Shown here piece by piece: positions 6,109 through 11,525 of a stretch of 64,000 nucleotides of DNA. The translations under genes and the position numbers were made by a program. Location of the stretch: positions 124,001-188,000 of the forward strand of contig JAHBXW010000004.1 in NCBI GenBank assembly GCA_019636235.1. Direction: 5' to 3'. Position 1 is the first letter of the stretch. Each line of letters begins with the position of its first letter. The notes beneath the pieces are model-generated. The model worked only from the letters and a program-made list of their open reading frames with translations, was not told where the DNA came from and ran no database searches. Source of the stretch: Planctomyces sp. Its GTDB lineage: Bacteria > Planctomycetota > Planctomycetia > Planctomycetales > Planctomycetaceae.

Positions 6109-6174
6109 ATGCGCCGTTCCGACGTGCTAACGGCCGTGGCAGGAGCCGTCAGGGCCGGAGAACAAAGGAGGGCG

Positions 6175-7134
6175 ATGGCCGTTCAAGTTCATGAAGTCGT
6201 GCTCCGCAGCGAACAGTCCTTCGGAGGGAAACTGCCCCCGCGTCATGTCGGGATGCTGCTCGAAGAGCTGCCGCTGGCGCTCCGGGAATCGGTGTCGATG
6301 GCATTTCGAAATCGCAGTTCGTCGCCGGGGCGGATACCGGGGTGGCTCGCCGATACGGCCGATGTCCGGTTCGTCGGTCACCAGGGTGGTAGCGACACGG
6401 TTCTGTACTTCGAAGCGCCGATGCTCCGCGACGCCGCACCGGAGATCTACGCACAGCAGTCCCTCCTTCCGGGCCTCGACGACCGTCCGGACCCGGGAAA
6501 CACCGCGTTCGATTTGTTCGCGGATGTCGTGTCGGATATCGCGAACTTTGTCGAGGACAGTCCGCACTTCGATTCGCCGCTACTCTCCCGCGTCGCCCGG
6601 TTTCGCAGGGTCATCAACAAGGGGCCGTTTTCGGAAGTCGACATCCCCAAGCGGACTGGATCAGGTCAGGAACCTGCGAAGATCACCAGCGCGACCGTGG
6701 AGTCCGCACAATCGCTGCTCGGCAGGACGCCTGAGTCGCAGCGGGTTCGCGTCGTGGGTCAGCTTGACGGCCTGGTTCACAGCACGCAGAGATTCTCGAT
6801 CCTGCTCGACAATGGAGAGAAGGCCGCCGGCGTCTTTCCAGAAGATCAGGCGGAATACGTGAAGCAGCACTGGGGCCGGCGAGTGCTGGTGCTGGGCGTC
6901 GCGGTTTACCGAGCATCGGGCCGGTTGTTGCGCATCGACGCCGACCGGATTCTTCCAGGCGATCAGGAATCCGCAGTCTTTTCGCGAGTGTCGCCGCCAG
7001 CGCCCCGCCGACTAGATCCTTCGAAACTGCGCAAGCCGCAAGGGCCGAAATCCGGCGTCAACGCGATCGTGGGCCGGTGGCCTGGGGATGAGACGGATGA
7101 GGAGATCGCGGACGCGCTGGAGCGGCTCTCGTGA
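6175..7134 (+). CDS. Uncharacterised 319-residue protein, candidate antitoxin partner of a PIN gene
   Basis: The start at ATG 6175 is decided by an AAAGGAGG Shine-Dalgarno at 6164-6171; an in-frame upstream ATG at 6106 lacks one. The N-terminal part (GKLPPRHVGMLLEELP, then RNRSSSPGRIPGWLADTADVR) has no recognised domain. A beta-rich domain around residues 190-260 (VRVVGQLDGLVHSTQRFSIL) looks like a small OB or SH3-like barrel. The C terminus ends WPGDETDEEIADALERLS, an acidic helical tail of the kind that antitoxins use to wrap a toxin. The stop TGA overlaps the GTG start of the PIN gene by 3 bases. That coupling and order suggest an unusually large antitoxin or a PIN regulator. I know no characterised homologue, so the role is inference. 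Confidence 0.75.
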   Translation: MAVQVHEVVLRSEQSFGGKLPPRHVGMLLEELPLALRESVSMAFRNRSSSPGRIPGWLADTADVRFVGHQGGSDTVLYFEAPMLRDAAPEIYAQQSLLPGLDDRPDPGNTAFDLFADVVSDIANFVEDSPHFDSPLLSRVARFRRVINKGPFSEVDIPKRTGSGQEPAKITSATVESAQSLLGRTPESQRVRVVGQLDGLVHSTQRFSILLDNGEKAAGVFPEDQAEYVKQHWGRRVLVLGVAVYRASGRLLRIDADRILPGDQESAVFSRVSPPAPRRLDPSKLRKPQGPKSGVNAIVGRWPGDETDEEIADALERLS

Positions 7135-7571
7135 CGGCCATGCCGCACGACCTGACACTGCTCGACACATCCGCGCTCGTGCACATCGCACGCAACGACG
7201 CGACGGGACGTCAGATTCTCGTGGACTGGCATCTTGATGCCCGGCCCGATCGTCCGCTCATCTCAACCATCACGGAAGGGGAAATTCTGTCGATCGGCAA
7301 GCGGAGGAGGTGGGGACAGGAGAAGCTGGATCGCCTTCAGGATCTATTGAACGAGTTTGTTCGCGTCGAGGCGGGACTGCCCCAGATTGTCGCGGCCTAA
7401 GCGGAGCTCGACGTGATCAACGTCAACTTGGGGCTGAATATTGGCGAGAACGATGTATGGATCGCAGCAACAGCGCGCGTCACCGGCGCGGCGCTGCTCA
7501 CCTGCGACGCCGACTTCACGCGATTGCCGCCAGACCTGATCCGTGTGGAATTCGTCGCCACGGCCAGCTGA
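7131..7571 (+). pseudogene. PIN-domain (VapC-like) toxin gene with in-frame stop
   Basis: The frame reads as a full PIN domain from GTG 7131 (or ATG 7140) to TGA 7569-7571 except for TAA at 7398-7400. Before it is the first catalytic aspartate (LLDTSALVHIA) and the conserved glutamate region (STITEGEILSIG). After it the same frame continues AELDVINVNLGLNIGENDVWIAATA and then TCDADFTRL, which carry the two later PIN aspartates. PIN proteins often read AAYAELD at this point, so a single TAC or TAT to TAA change would explain the break. The truncated 89-residue product lacks half of the acidic site and should not cut RNA. A sequencing error or readthrough is the alternative. Confidence 0.8.
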
Positions 7572-8375: not shown

Positions 8376-8620
8376 AGGGGCCAGGCCGGGAATCGGGCAA
8401 TTCGGATGAGACGGGACGGTTCAGCGGAGAGCCATCGCCCATTCGCCGCGAGGTCAGCGAATGCAGGACGACCCGCGAACCACGCGGGAGCATTGTGGCG
8501 CGTCGACCCGGCGGATTCGAGACTGCCGCTCGCTGCCGCTCAAACTCACCCGCCGTTGACGATGCGTGGACAGGCGTGCGCTGACCGGGTCAAATGGAGG
8601 CAGCCCCGAAGGACTCCCCC

Positions 8621-9034
8621 ATGCCGCTCGAACTCACGATCCGCGATGAATCGACAGACGGCCGCGTCACCGGCGAGACCGTCGTCGAGTTCCTCACAGA
8701 GAGCATTACTGTCGAGGAGCTCATCAAGAGCCGCGTCTACCAGGAAGTTCAGGACTACAACCAGCGCCGCTCGGGCGTGTTCACCGGGCTGGTTCGGCCG
8801 GCGGAAGCGGAGCCGGAGGAGCGGGGCTTCAAGCTCCAGAAATCGCGATTGATCGACTGGAACGAGCAGTACGAGATCGCCCGCGCCGCGTTTGAGAAGG
8901 GGCAGGTGCTGATCCTTGTCGACGATCGGCAGGTCGATCGTCTGGATGAGCGAATCGAACTGCGGCCGGCGATCGGAGACCGGGCGGCGACATCGGTGTC
9001 GTTTCTGCGACTGACGCCCCTCGTTGGCGGTTGA
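8621..9034 (+). CDS. Small conserved protein paired with DUF4132 gene
   Basis: A 137-residue soluble protein starting MPLELTIRDES. ATG 8621 is preferred over the in-frame ATG at 8594 because AAGGA lies 7 bases before it. The first 30 residues look like a beta-strand pair (LTIRDESTDGRVTGETVVEF) and then a helix (TVEELIKSRVYQEVQDYN); the second half is alpha/beta with VLILVDDRQVDRLDERIEL near the end. There is no signal or membrane segment. It stops 10 bases before the DUF4132 gene, which has its own GAAGG site, so the two are almost surely one transcript. I recall similar small proteins beside DUF4132 genes elsewhere, but no function is known to me. Confidence 0.78.
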   Translation: MPLELTIRDESTDGRVTGETVVEFLTESITVEELIKSRVYQEVQDYNQRRSGVFTGLVRPAEAEPEERGFKLQKSRLIDWNEQYEIARAAFEKGQVLILVDDRQVDRLDERIELRPAIGDRAATSVSFLRLTPLVGG

Positions 9035-9044
9035 AGGTCAGCCA

Positions 9045-11525
9045 ATGCACTGGCTGATTGATCGCTATCTGAAGGAGTTCCGGAACTGTCGCACTGCGGC
9101 GATGTCCCCGGCCGACTCGGATCTTGTCGGGGGGTTGCGGAATGGTCTGTTCAGCGAACGGGAACTCCTGCTCTGGTCGCTGCAGACCGACCCTGCGAGT
9201 CCGCGCGACCGCGAGTCGCTGTTGAAGCTGGAAGACTTCCTGCTGGAACGCGGGCAGGAGGTCGTCGCCGAGGACGCGACGACCCTGATTCGCAGCTTGA
9301 AAGCGGATTGGAGACGGCGAGCGCTTGGGGATGCGATCGTCGGCGGCGTCAATGAAATCCTGGCGAGGGCCGCGCAGGTTCGGCCGTCCCTCCGGGACGC
9401 GGCTGCGGATCTGCGCGACTATCTACAGGGCGTCGCGGACGATCCGGAGACGGAGCGAGTTCGTCTCGCCGTCGATCGCTGGCTGGCCCGGTTTCCGGAA
9501 CCGACCGCCCGCGCCCGGCATCTGGAGAAGGTTCCTCTGTGGCCGTTCGATGGCTGGGCGGAAGCGGCGCTGGCTGAGATCACGCGACTGACCGACGACG
9601 AAATCGCGGCGTGGACGCCCTTCCTCGCCCACGCCAACTCCGTTTCGGCCGCGCGGCCGTCCAAACGCTGGCAGAAAACCGCCGCCAGGCTGGCCGCCGC
9701 ACTGCCCGTCGACTGGACGACGCGCATTGTCGGCTGGCTCGCGAATTTCGACACGCCCAGCACGGCCCCGGATCAGGCCGGCAATCCCTGGGCGCTGCAT
9801 CCCTGGAACGTTGAGACGCTCCGCGGGCTGGTCTGGACGTTGGCGCAGACGCAGGACGACGAAGTCGCCCGGGCGCTCGGCCGGCTGGCGTCCAGCTCGT
9901 TTCGGAAGCGTCCGCAATTCGGAATGCGATCAGTGAAGCTGGGCAACGCCTGCGTGTGGGCGCTGGGCGAAATCGGCAGCCGCGCCGCCCTCGCGCAGCT
10001 CGCCTACCTCAAGGTCCGGCTGCGGTTCGCGGCGGCGCAAAAGGAAGTCGATAAGGCGCTCAACGGCGTGGCTGAGCGATTGGGGGTCCCGCGCGAGGAC
10101 ATCGAGGAGCTGGCCGTCCCCGGGTTCGGCATGACCGAGGTCGGACGCCTGATCGAGCCGCTGGGCGACTTCACAGCGGAGCTGACCGTCGCTCCACCGG
10201 GACGGGCGGACATCGTGTGGCGGACGCCAGCCGGCAAGGTTCAGAAATCGGTCCCGGCGGCGGTCCGCACGGGACATGCGGACGAACTCAAGGAACTCAA
10301 GGCGACGGCGCGCGACATCGCAAGGATGCTCCCGGCGCAGCGCGACCGCATCGACAGCCTGTTCCTGGAGCGTCGCAGCTGGACCTTCGCCGACTGGCGC
10401 GAACGGCATCTCGACCACCCGCTGCTGGGGATTCTCGCACGACGGATCATCTGGACCTTTGAAACGCCGGCTGGAATCCGTTCTGGCATCTGGCGGGCGG
10501 ATCGGATGGTCGATGTCGACGACGAGCCGCTGGACGGGCTCGACGGCCCGGATGTCGTCGTGCGGTTATGGCATCCCATCGGACTTCCGCTGGACGACGT
10601 GCTGGCGTGGCGGGGCTGGCTGGAGCGGCACGAAGTCCGCCAGCCGTTCAAGCAGGCGCATCGCGAGGTGTATGTCCTCACGGATGCGGAGCGCCGCACC
10701 GCGACCTACTCGAACCGGTTCGCATCGCACATCCTCCGCCAGCACCAGTTTCATGCGCTGTGCGGAGTGCGGGGCTGGCGGGACCAGTTGCGGCTGTCGG
10801 TGGACGCCGCGAGTCCGCCGCCGACGAAGCGGCTGCCGGCGTGGGGGCTCCGCGCGGAGTTCTGGGTGCACGCGGGCGATGACGAAATCAGCGAGGTCGG
10901 TACGTTCCTCCGGCTGGCGACGGACCAGGTCCGGTTCTATCGGATCGAGGCGGATGCTCGATACGCGCACATGTGGGGCGGGCAGTACGTGACCGATGGC
11001 GTCGTCCGTCCGGAAAATGAACCCGTCCCGCTGGAGCAGATTCCGCCCCTGGTGCTGTCGGAGATCTTTCGCGACGTCGATCTGTTCGTCGGCGTGGCGA
11101 GCGTCGGCAACGACCCGACCTGGGCCGACGGCGGCCCCGGTGGACAGCATCGCGATTACTGGACGTCGTATTCGTTCGGCGATCTGACGGCCGCGGCACA
11201 GACTCGAAGGGACGTCCTGCAGCGGTTGATCCCGCGCCTCAAAATCGCTGACCGCTGTTCGTTCAACGACCGCTATCTCGTTGTCCGCGGCGATCTGCGG
11301 ACCTACCGCATTCATCTCGGCAGCGGGAACATCCTGATGCAGCCGAACGACCAGTATCTCTGCATCGTGCAGGACGCGGGGAACTGGAAAGAGCACACCG
11401 GATCTCCATTCCTGCCGTTCGAGGGAGACCGCACGCTGTCGATCATTCTCAGCAAGGCGCTGCTGCTCGCGGCGGACACGAAGATCCAGGATCCGACGAT
11501 CGTCCGGCAGATTCGAATGGACTGA
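9045..11525 (+). CDS. DUF4132 domain protein (MolR-like)
   Basis: An 826-residue soluble protein with start ATG 9045 behind a GAAGG site. The N-terminal 400 residues are helical and contain HEAT-like stretches (for example LGNACVWALGEIGSRAALAQL). A DUF4132 region follows, with SWTFADWRERHLDHPLLGIL and VVRLWHPIGLPLDDVLAWRG, and the C-terminal segment NDRYLVVRGDLRTYRIHLGS up to KIQDPTIVRQIRMD matches the conserved tail seen in these proteins. E. coli MolR/YehI belong to this group, which lacks a proven biochemical role. It forms a two-gene unit with the 137-residue gene upstream. The large tail-to-tail neighbour begins only 3 bases after its stop, on the other strand. Confidence 0.88.
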   Translation: MHWLIDRYLKEFRNCRTAAMSPADSDLVGGLRNGLFSERELLLWSLQTDPASPRDRESLLKLEDFLLERGQEVVAEDATTLIRSLKADWRRRALGDAIVGGVNEILARAAQVRPSLRDAAADLRDYLQGVADDPETERVRLAVDRWLARFPEPTARARHLEKVPLWPFDGWAEAALAEITRLTDDEIAAWTPFLAHANSVSAARPSKRWQKTAARLAAALPVDWTTRIVGWLANFDTPSTAPDQAGNPWALHPWNVETLRGLVWTLAQTQDDEVARALGRLASSSFRKRPQFGMRSVKLGNACVWALGEIGSRAALAQLAYLKVRLRFAAAQKEVDKALNGVAERLGVPREDIEELAVPGFGMTEVGRLIEPLGDFTAELTVAPPGRADIVWRTPAGKVQKSVPAAVRTGHADELKELKATARDIARMLPAQRDRIDSLFLERRSWTFADWRERHLDHPLLGILARRIIWTFETPAGIRSGIWRADRMVDVDDEPLDGLDGPDVVVRLWHPIGLPLDDVLAWRGWLERHEVRQPFKQAHREVYVLTDAERRTATYSNRFASHILRQHQFHALCGVRGWRDQLRLSVDAASPPPTKRLPAWGLRAEFWVHAGDDEISEVGTFLRLATDQVRFYRIEADARYAHMWGGQYVTDGVVRPENEPVPLEQIPPLVLSEIFRDVDLFVGVASVGNDPTWADGGPGGQHRDYWTSYSFGDLTAAAQTRRDVLQRLIPRLKIADRCSFNDRYLVVRGDLRTYRIHLGSGNILMQPNDQYLCIVQDAGNWKEHTGSPFLPFEGDRTLSIILSKALLLAADTKIQDPTIVRQIRMD

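Follow-up and report, generated by a model that had tools for sequence, protein, structure and literature searches.

A putative VapBC-like operon with a large alpha/beta and OB-fold antitoxin and an interrupted PIN-domain gene

Positions 6175–7571 of the window (the whole 64-kb stretch of DNA analysed) contain two forward-strand genes. The first (6175..7134, + strand; stop TGA at 7132–7134) encodes a putative antitoxin of 319 aa with homologues in many bacterial phyla. Its frame is open already from GTG 6106; homologues begin near 6175 (alignment A1), and a ribosome-binding-type sequence read from the DNA, AAAGGAGG at 6164..6171 (+), precedes the ATG at 6175 and backs it as the start. The second gene (7131..7571, +) is a PIN-domain (VapC-type) toxin gene that is interrupted, and its frame begins at GTG 7131 within the antitoxin stop codon. 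The first-pass annotation had described a 319-residue protein coupled to a PIN gene, correctly as to coordinates and content, with an overlap of 3 bases; counting the stop codon, 4 bases are shared (GTGA at 7131). Stop/start overlaps of 4 bases are frequent among related loci, and the two-gene arrangement, with the antitoxin first and the genes overlapping or adjacent, is that of a VapBC operon. A search for operator palindromes upstream of the operon gave weak repeats at most. A tRNA integration site was also sought, and no tRNA lies within the 64-kb window; neither a conserved junction nor an empty site could be shown as the place of insertion, since in a same-genus genome the BatA and SDR genes that flank the pair are not neighbours.

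The 319-residue protein was modelled with AlphaFold2 using 28 sequences (pLDDT 88). Its N-terminal alpha/beta domain (residues 1–184; 6175..6726, +), which reaches a pLDDT of 93 when residues 1–187 are modelled separately, has no convincing known fold; PDB fold searches with it gave only weak matches, and its sole significant viral fold match is an uncharacterised protein of Leptospira phage LE1. An archaeo-eukaryotic primase was considered and is not claimed, because the best structural matches of a second comparison, to herpes UL52 (Z 5.8) and to poxvirus primase domains (Z about 4.5), fall below the trusted level, Foldseek gives the poxvirus domains E-values of 0.4 or worse, and the conserved columns contain a single acidic residue. 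The part described at first pass as a barrel-like middle is predicted to adopt an OB fold (residues 187–266; 6733..6972, +), modelled with high confidence by AlphaFold2 and recognised by structure comparison. It aligns with PriB (1txy) over 69 residues at 2.1 Å (VIA-align Z 9.6), a match of fold between a predicted model and a structure. The nearest structures to residues 187–266 are PriB, SSB and RPA, with many SSB and RPA chains matched, and at the level of predicted fold the barrel is of the kind found in OB proteins that bind single-stranded nucleic acids.

Sequence searches with the 319-residue protein return no Pfam or NCBIfam family, no VapB family and no matching solved sequence, and tblastn with the window protein finds no homologues among plasmid and phage sequences. 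Membership of a known enzyme family, which the first-pass annotation had weighed as the case against its own proposal, did not emerge from Pfam, NCBIfam or the solved sequences; the only named candidate is PDC-M32A, from PADLOC. The suggestion that the family may be undescribed therefore stands with regard to Pfam and NCBIfam and has to be qualified with regard to PADLOC, in which PDC-M32A shares the body.

The C-terminal tail (residues 270–319; 6982..7131, +) is modelled at low confidence apart from short helices (block pLDDT 53–79). It includes the WPGDETDE motif (residues 302–309; 7078..7101, +), in which W302-P303-G304-D305-E306 is invariant in 32 members, and the WPGDETDEEIADALERLS tail contains the most conserved columns of the large-protein family (alignment A1). 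This conservation, the low order of the model and the presence of the same tail on other PIN antitoxins fit the antitoxin-type tail that had been proposed. The WPGDE tail is found before the same PIN subfamily on AF2212/DUF104 proteins (L044, L045), on DUF433 proteins fused to this same OB barrel (L027, L031) and on short linear proteins (L043, L046, L047, L049, L054). So it is in L032:3194-4111, whose 306-residue protein has an unrelated body and no Pfam match. RHH-like/ParD-like proteins carry the tail as well (L041, L052), with their PIN lost or reduced to a remnant. One of the short-protein loci (L047:3827-5302) has two tandem short-antitoxin/PIN pairs with the same tail and PIN family. 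DUF433, DUF104 and RHH proteins are described antitoxin partners of PIN toxins (PMC2701414). A tail that is constant while the N-termini vary, before one PIN subfamily, matches the expectation for a toxin-neutralising segment, and the WPGDE tail is very probably the PIN-neutralising module. The partner is unusual, as first supposed, in its large body, but not in its tail or its PIN subfamily, both of which recur with known small antitoxin domains.

PF01850 is detected in both halves of the window PIN gene, which is split by an in-frame TAA (7398–7400, +) in a column with a nearly invariant residue in intact relatives; past this codon the frame continues to a TGA at 7569–7571. Catalytic-type acidic residues are retained (A5 alignment), so that the PIN domain is of the VapBC type with its conserved acidic residues, in an interrupted copy. 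A search with the PIN profile retrieves solved VapC/FitB toxins (6nkl, E 6.7e-16), and NCBIfam VapC models are the best but sub-threshold matches (NF047959 in L005, 26.1 bits vs a cut-off of 80). Apart from the window gene, no PIN match was found in the 5.6 Mb genome, which its detected relatives place in the Planctomycetota.

Of 41 loci, 9 have a broken PIN gene, in five cases through a single in-frame stop, vs no interruptions of full-length bodies (Fisher p 0.0009, uncorrected for relatedness and biased in that the searches need an intact body). Single in-frame stops of different kinds are seen in L007:4969-5388, L034:4585-5031, L067 and L125. The first of these is in the finished genome of Singulisphaera acidiphila, so PIN interruption is not merely a matter of assembly. 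Programmed recoding of the stop was considered and rejected, since the five interrupted copies, including that of the window, differ both in the stop codon (TAA, TGA, TAG) and in its position. Decay of the PIN gene with the body kept is the order of loss expected if the PIN protein is the toxin. A further state is seen in Singulisphaera sp. GP187 (L038:3878-5229), where a body remnant and the tail are all that is left; PIN has been lost, and the next gene, which again overlaps by 4 bases, is weakly PD-(D/E)XK-like.

Homologues were collected in a first search whose seed patterns included the tail (50 loci), and in a repeat search with a tail-free profile that covers only the body (alignment A3). 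The body HMM matches proteins of other genomes with E-values down to 1e-106, and a PIN gene is directly downstream in 42 of the 44 assessable non-redundant loci with a body; homologues that usually lack a PIN neighbour, the other outcome against which the first-pass annotation had set its proposal, are therefore not what is found. In the body-alone searches, 24 strong hits are on contigs that continue past the gene, and 22 of these have a PIN gene directly downstream. Body matches of this strength with PIN next in 42/44 loci, yet one PIN match in this 5.6 Mb genome, argue that the pairing is not due to chance. The converse also holds: 149 Planctomycetota genomes contain eight PIN matches with E<=1e-20, and every one of them directly follows a body gene of the same strand, at a gap equal to the tail. 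Body and PIN identities also co-vary (Mantel r 0.59, 0/5000 permutations, relatedness uncorrected). The two exceptions without PIN are L068:1387-2310 (− strand), where the homologous body ends in a different C-terminus, and L130, a body remnant with tail. A weak homologue of the OB part of the body (L131:965-1510, − strand) precedes a PIN gene of another subfamily.

Given the observed operon structure, conserved pairing, predicted architecture, tail sharing, co-variation and preferential PIN decay, we consider a type II toxin-antitoxin operon of VapBC-like kind the likely identity of the locus, with a tail-neutralised PIN protein and a large body that replaces the small DNA-binding domain. The downstream gene of intact relatives would encode a PIN-domain ribonuclease, putatively a toxic one; the poorly ordered C-terminal tail, centred on WPGDETDEE, would wrap the PIN protein and block its active site; and the alpha/beta and OB body would be the regulatory part, in place of the usual small DNA-binding domain. 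The OB body may bind nucleic acid, either operator DNA in autoregulation or a nucleic-acid trigger that would free the toxin.

The pair resembles VapBC systems, including FitAB, in its antitoxin-first overlapping operon, its PIN domain with conserved acidic residues, and the poorly ordered C-terminal tail of its antitoxin. It differs from them in that the antitoxins are 310–330 aa with an alpha/beta and OB body, whereas those of VapBC are small RHH, AbrB, Phd or HTH proteins, and in that its PIN proteins score under the NCBIfam VapC cut-offs. Points against the VapBC reading are a large antitoxin without a recognised DNA-binding domain (none of RHH, AbrB, Phd or HTH type is found in the 319 aa, which are without a Pfam or NCBIfam match), a length three to four times that of a normal VapB, and the two body loci that have no PIN (L068, L130). 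The system would work like VapBC, but the large antitoxin itself is not called VapB, because it lacks both the small size and a known DNA-binding domain. Some members of the DUF433/DUF104 (AF2212) PIN antitoxins (PMC2701414) carry the WPGDETDE tail before the same PIN subfamily, although their DNA-binding-type domain is missing from the 319-residue protein. The large antitoxin class, in which an alpha/beta and OB body is joined to a WPGDE tail, is undescribed and unnamed in the curated family libraries searched, and no paper in the literature library searched joins an OB-fold antitoxin to VapC. With it, PIN toxins gain a putative class of antitoxins that are large and built of several domains.

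Here the in-frame stop codon inactivates the toxin. The chances are about even that the window pair is a decayed remnant without present function here, its PIN gene being broken by the TAA in a genome that has no other PIN match; the 319-residue frame is nevertheless intact, with a conserved motif and a good ribosome-binding sequence, and an orphan antitoxin may still protect. Such a remnant is compatible with the VapBC-like explanation of the pair and not opposed to it. Under the VapBC-like explanation the window antitoxin is probably a leftover, possibly one that still protects against related incoming modules.

The body is homologous to a protein of PDC-M32, a candidate phage-defence system of PADLOC. 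PADLOC PDC-M32A models match up to 11 of 32 members, and an hhalign comparison of the body with PDC-M32A gives a probability of 95.5% (E 1.6e-8) over 230 columns that span the alpha/beta and OB parts. In PDC-M32A, however, a different C-terminal domain stands in place of the WPGDE tail and a small partner gene of non-PIN type in place of PIN, and PADLOC finds no PDC-M32B among the PIN proteins; because the partner gene differs, the system here is not PDC-M32. PDC-M32A-like genes on plasmids encode a further C-terminal domain, and the gene behind them is small and not a PIN gene. At three such plasmid loci (L100:2959-4573, L101:2977-4517, L102:2956-4513) the next gene encodes a conserved 140-residue partner with the motif HP...G..S..F.PT.KD...LS..R.

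A second tail (..KLP.D...HDHYIYGTPKR) is found on differing N-termini, including a PDC-M32A-like body (L070:920-2388, − strand; L103, L107, L108, L112). In L070 and L103 the PDC-M32A-like body has this different tail (NLDHYLYG or HDHYIYGTPKR type) and a different PIN subfamily next, and the tail is in turn carried by short proteins unlike these, which have the same PIN in L107, L108 and L112. The putative toxin-binding tail and the N-terminal body move independently of each other. In the hyperpromiscuous antitoxin networks Panacea and NetFlax (PMC8832971, PMC10440598) antitoxin modules are likewise combined with various partners, but there one antitoxin domain is used with many toxins, whereas here one tail is on unrelated bodies and one body has unrelated tails; the comparison is one of principle.

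The homology to PDC-M32A and the sharing of the body among proteins with different tails and partners, together with an OB fold of the SSB/PriB/RPA type, favour a second account, in which the body would act as a trigger sensor: it would detect a nucleic-acid or protein signal of phage infection or DNA damage and release the PIN ribonuclease, in an abortive-infection defence related to PDC-M32. We regard this as possible but unlikely: PDC-M32 is itself a candidate with a second gene different in kind, and OB folds bind proteins too. A broader form is put forward as a speculation and is slightly more doubtful still. In it, the alpha/beta and OB body would be a sensor module that is common in prokaryotic conflict systems but has had no name, and that is joined to the PDC-M32 domain or to one of at least two PIN-neutralising tails; here it would sense phage or damage nucleic acid and release the PIN ribonuclease. 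A body that also occurs in a candidate phage-defence protein offers a handle on how a toxin-antitoxin pair might convert to or from a triggered defence.

The family is rare in each of the groups in which it is found. The body is present in 13 of 392 Planctomycetota, 6 of 347 Acidobacteriota and 7 of 345 Bacteroidota genomes, and contigs with the family are labelled as Planctomycetota, Acidobacteria, Bacteroidota, Gemmatimonadetes, Chloroflexota, Armatimonadota, Calditrichota, Myxococcota and Proteobacteria. A non-toxic complex for RNA processing or decay, with the OB protein delivering RNA to the PIN nuclease, would suit the plausible pairing of an OB fold with a PIN nuclease and the tightly coupled operon, but is improbable in view of this very patchy distribution, the same tail on known antitoxin domains, and the many cases in which PIN is lost while the body is kept.

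For the VapBC-like operon, horizontal transfer is probably the simplest account of the spread. A same-genus genome carries the family at a non-syntenic place, and the body tree recovers neither Planctomycetota nor Bacteroidota as a single group. GC3 is lower at the locus than in the neighbouring gene (0.74 vs 0.87), and both genes of the pair are below the neighbouring BatA-type gene. One contig labelled as a Bacteroidales MAG (L005) groups with Planctomycetota in the body tree, by possible mis-binning or transfer. Elsewhere in the window, positions 9024–11525 (+) encode an 833-residue protein with DUF4132 and DUF7737, adjoining a 146-residue ORF (8594–9034) that is unmatched.
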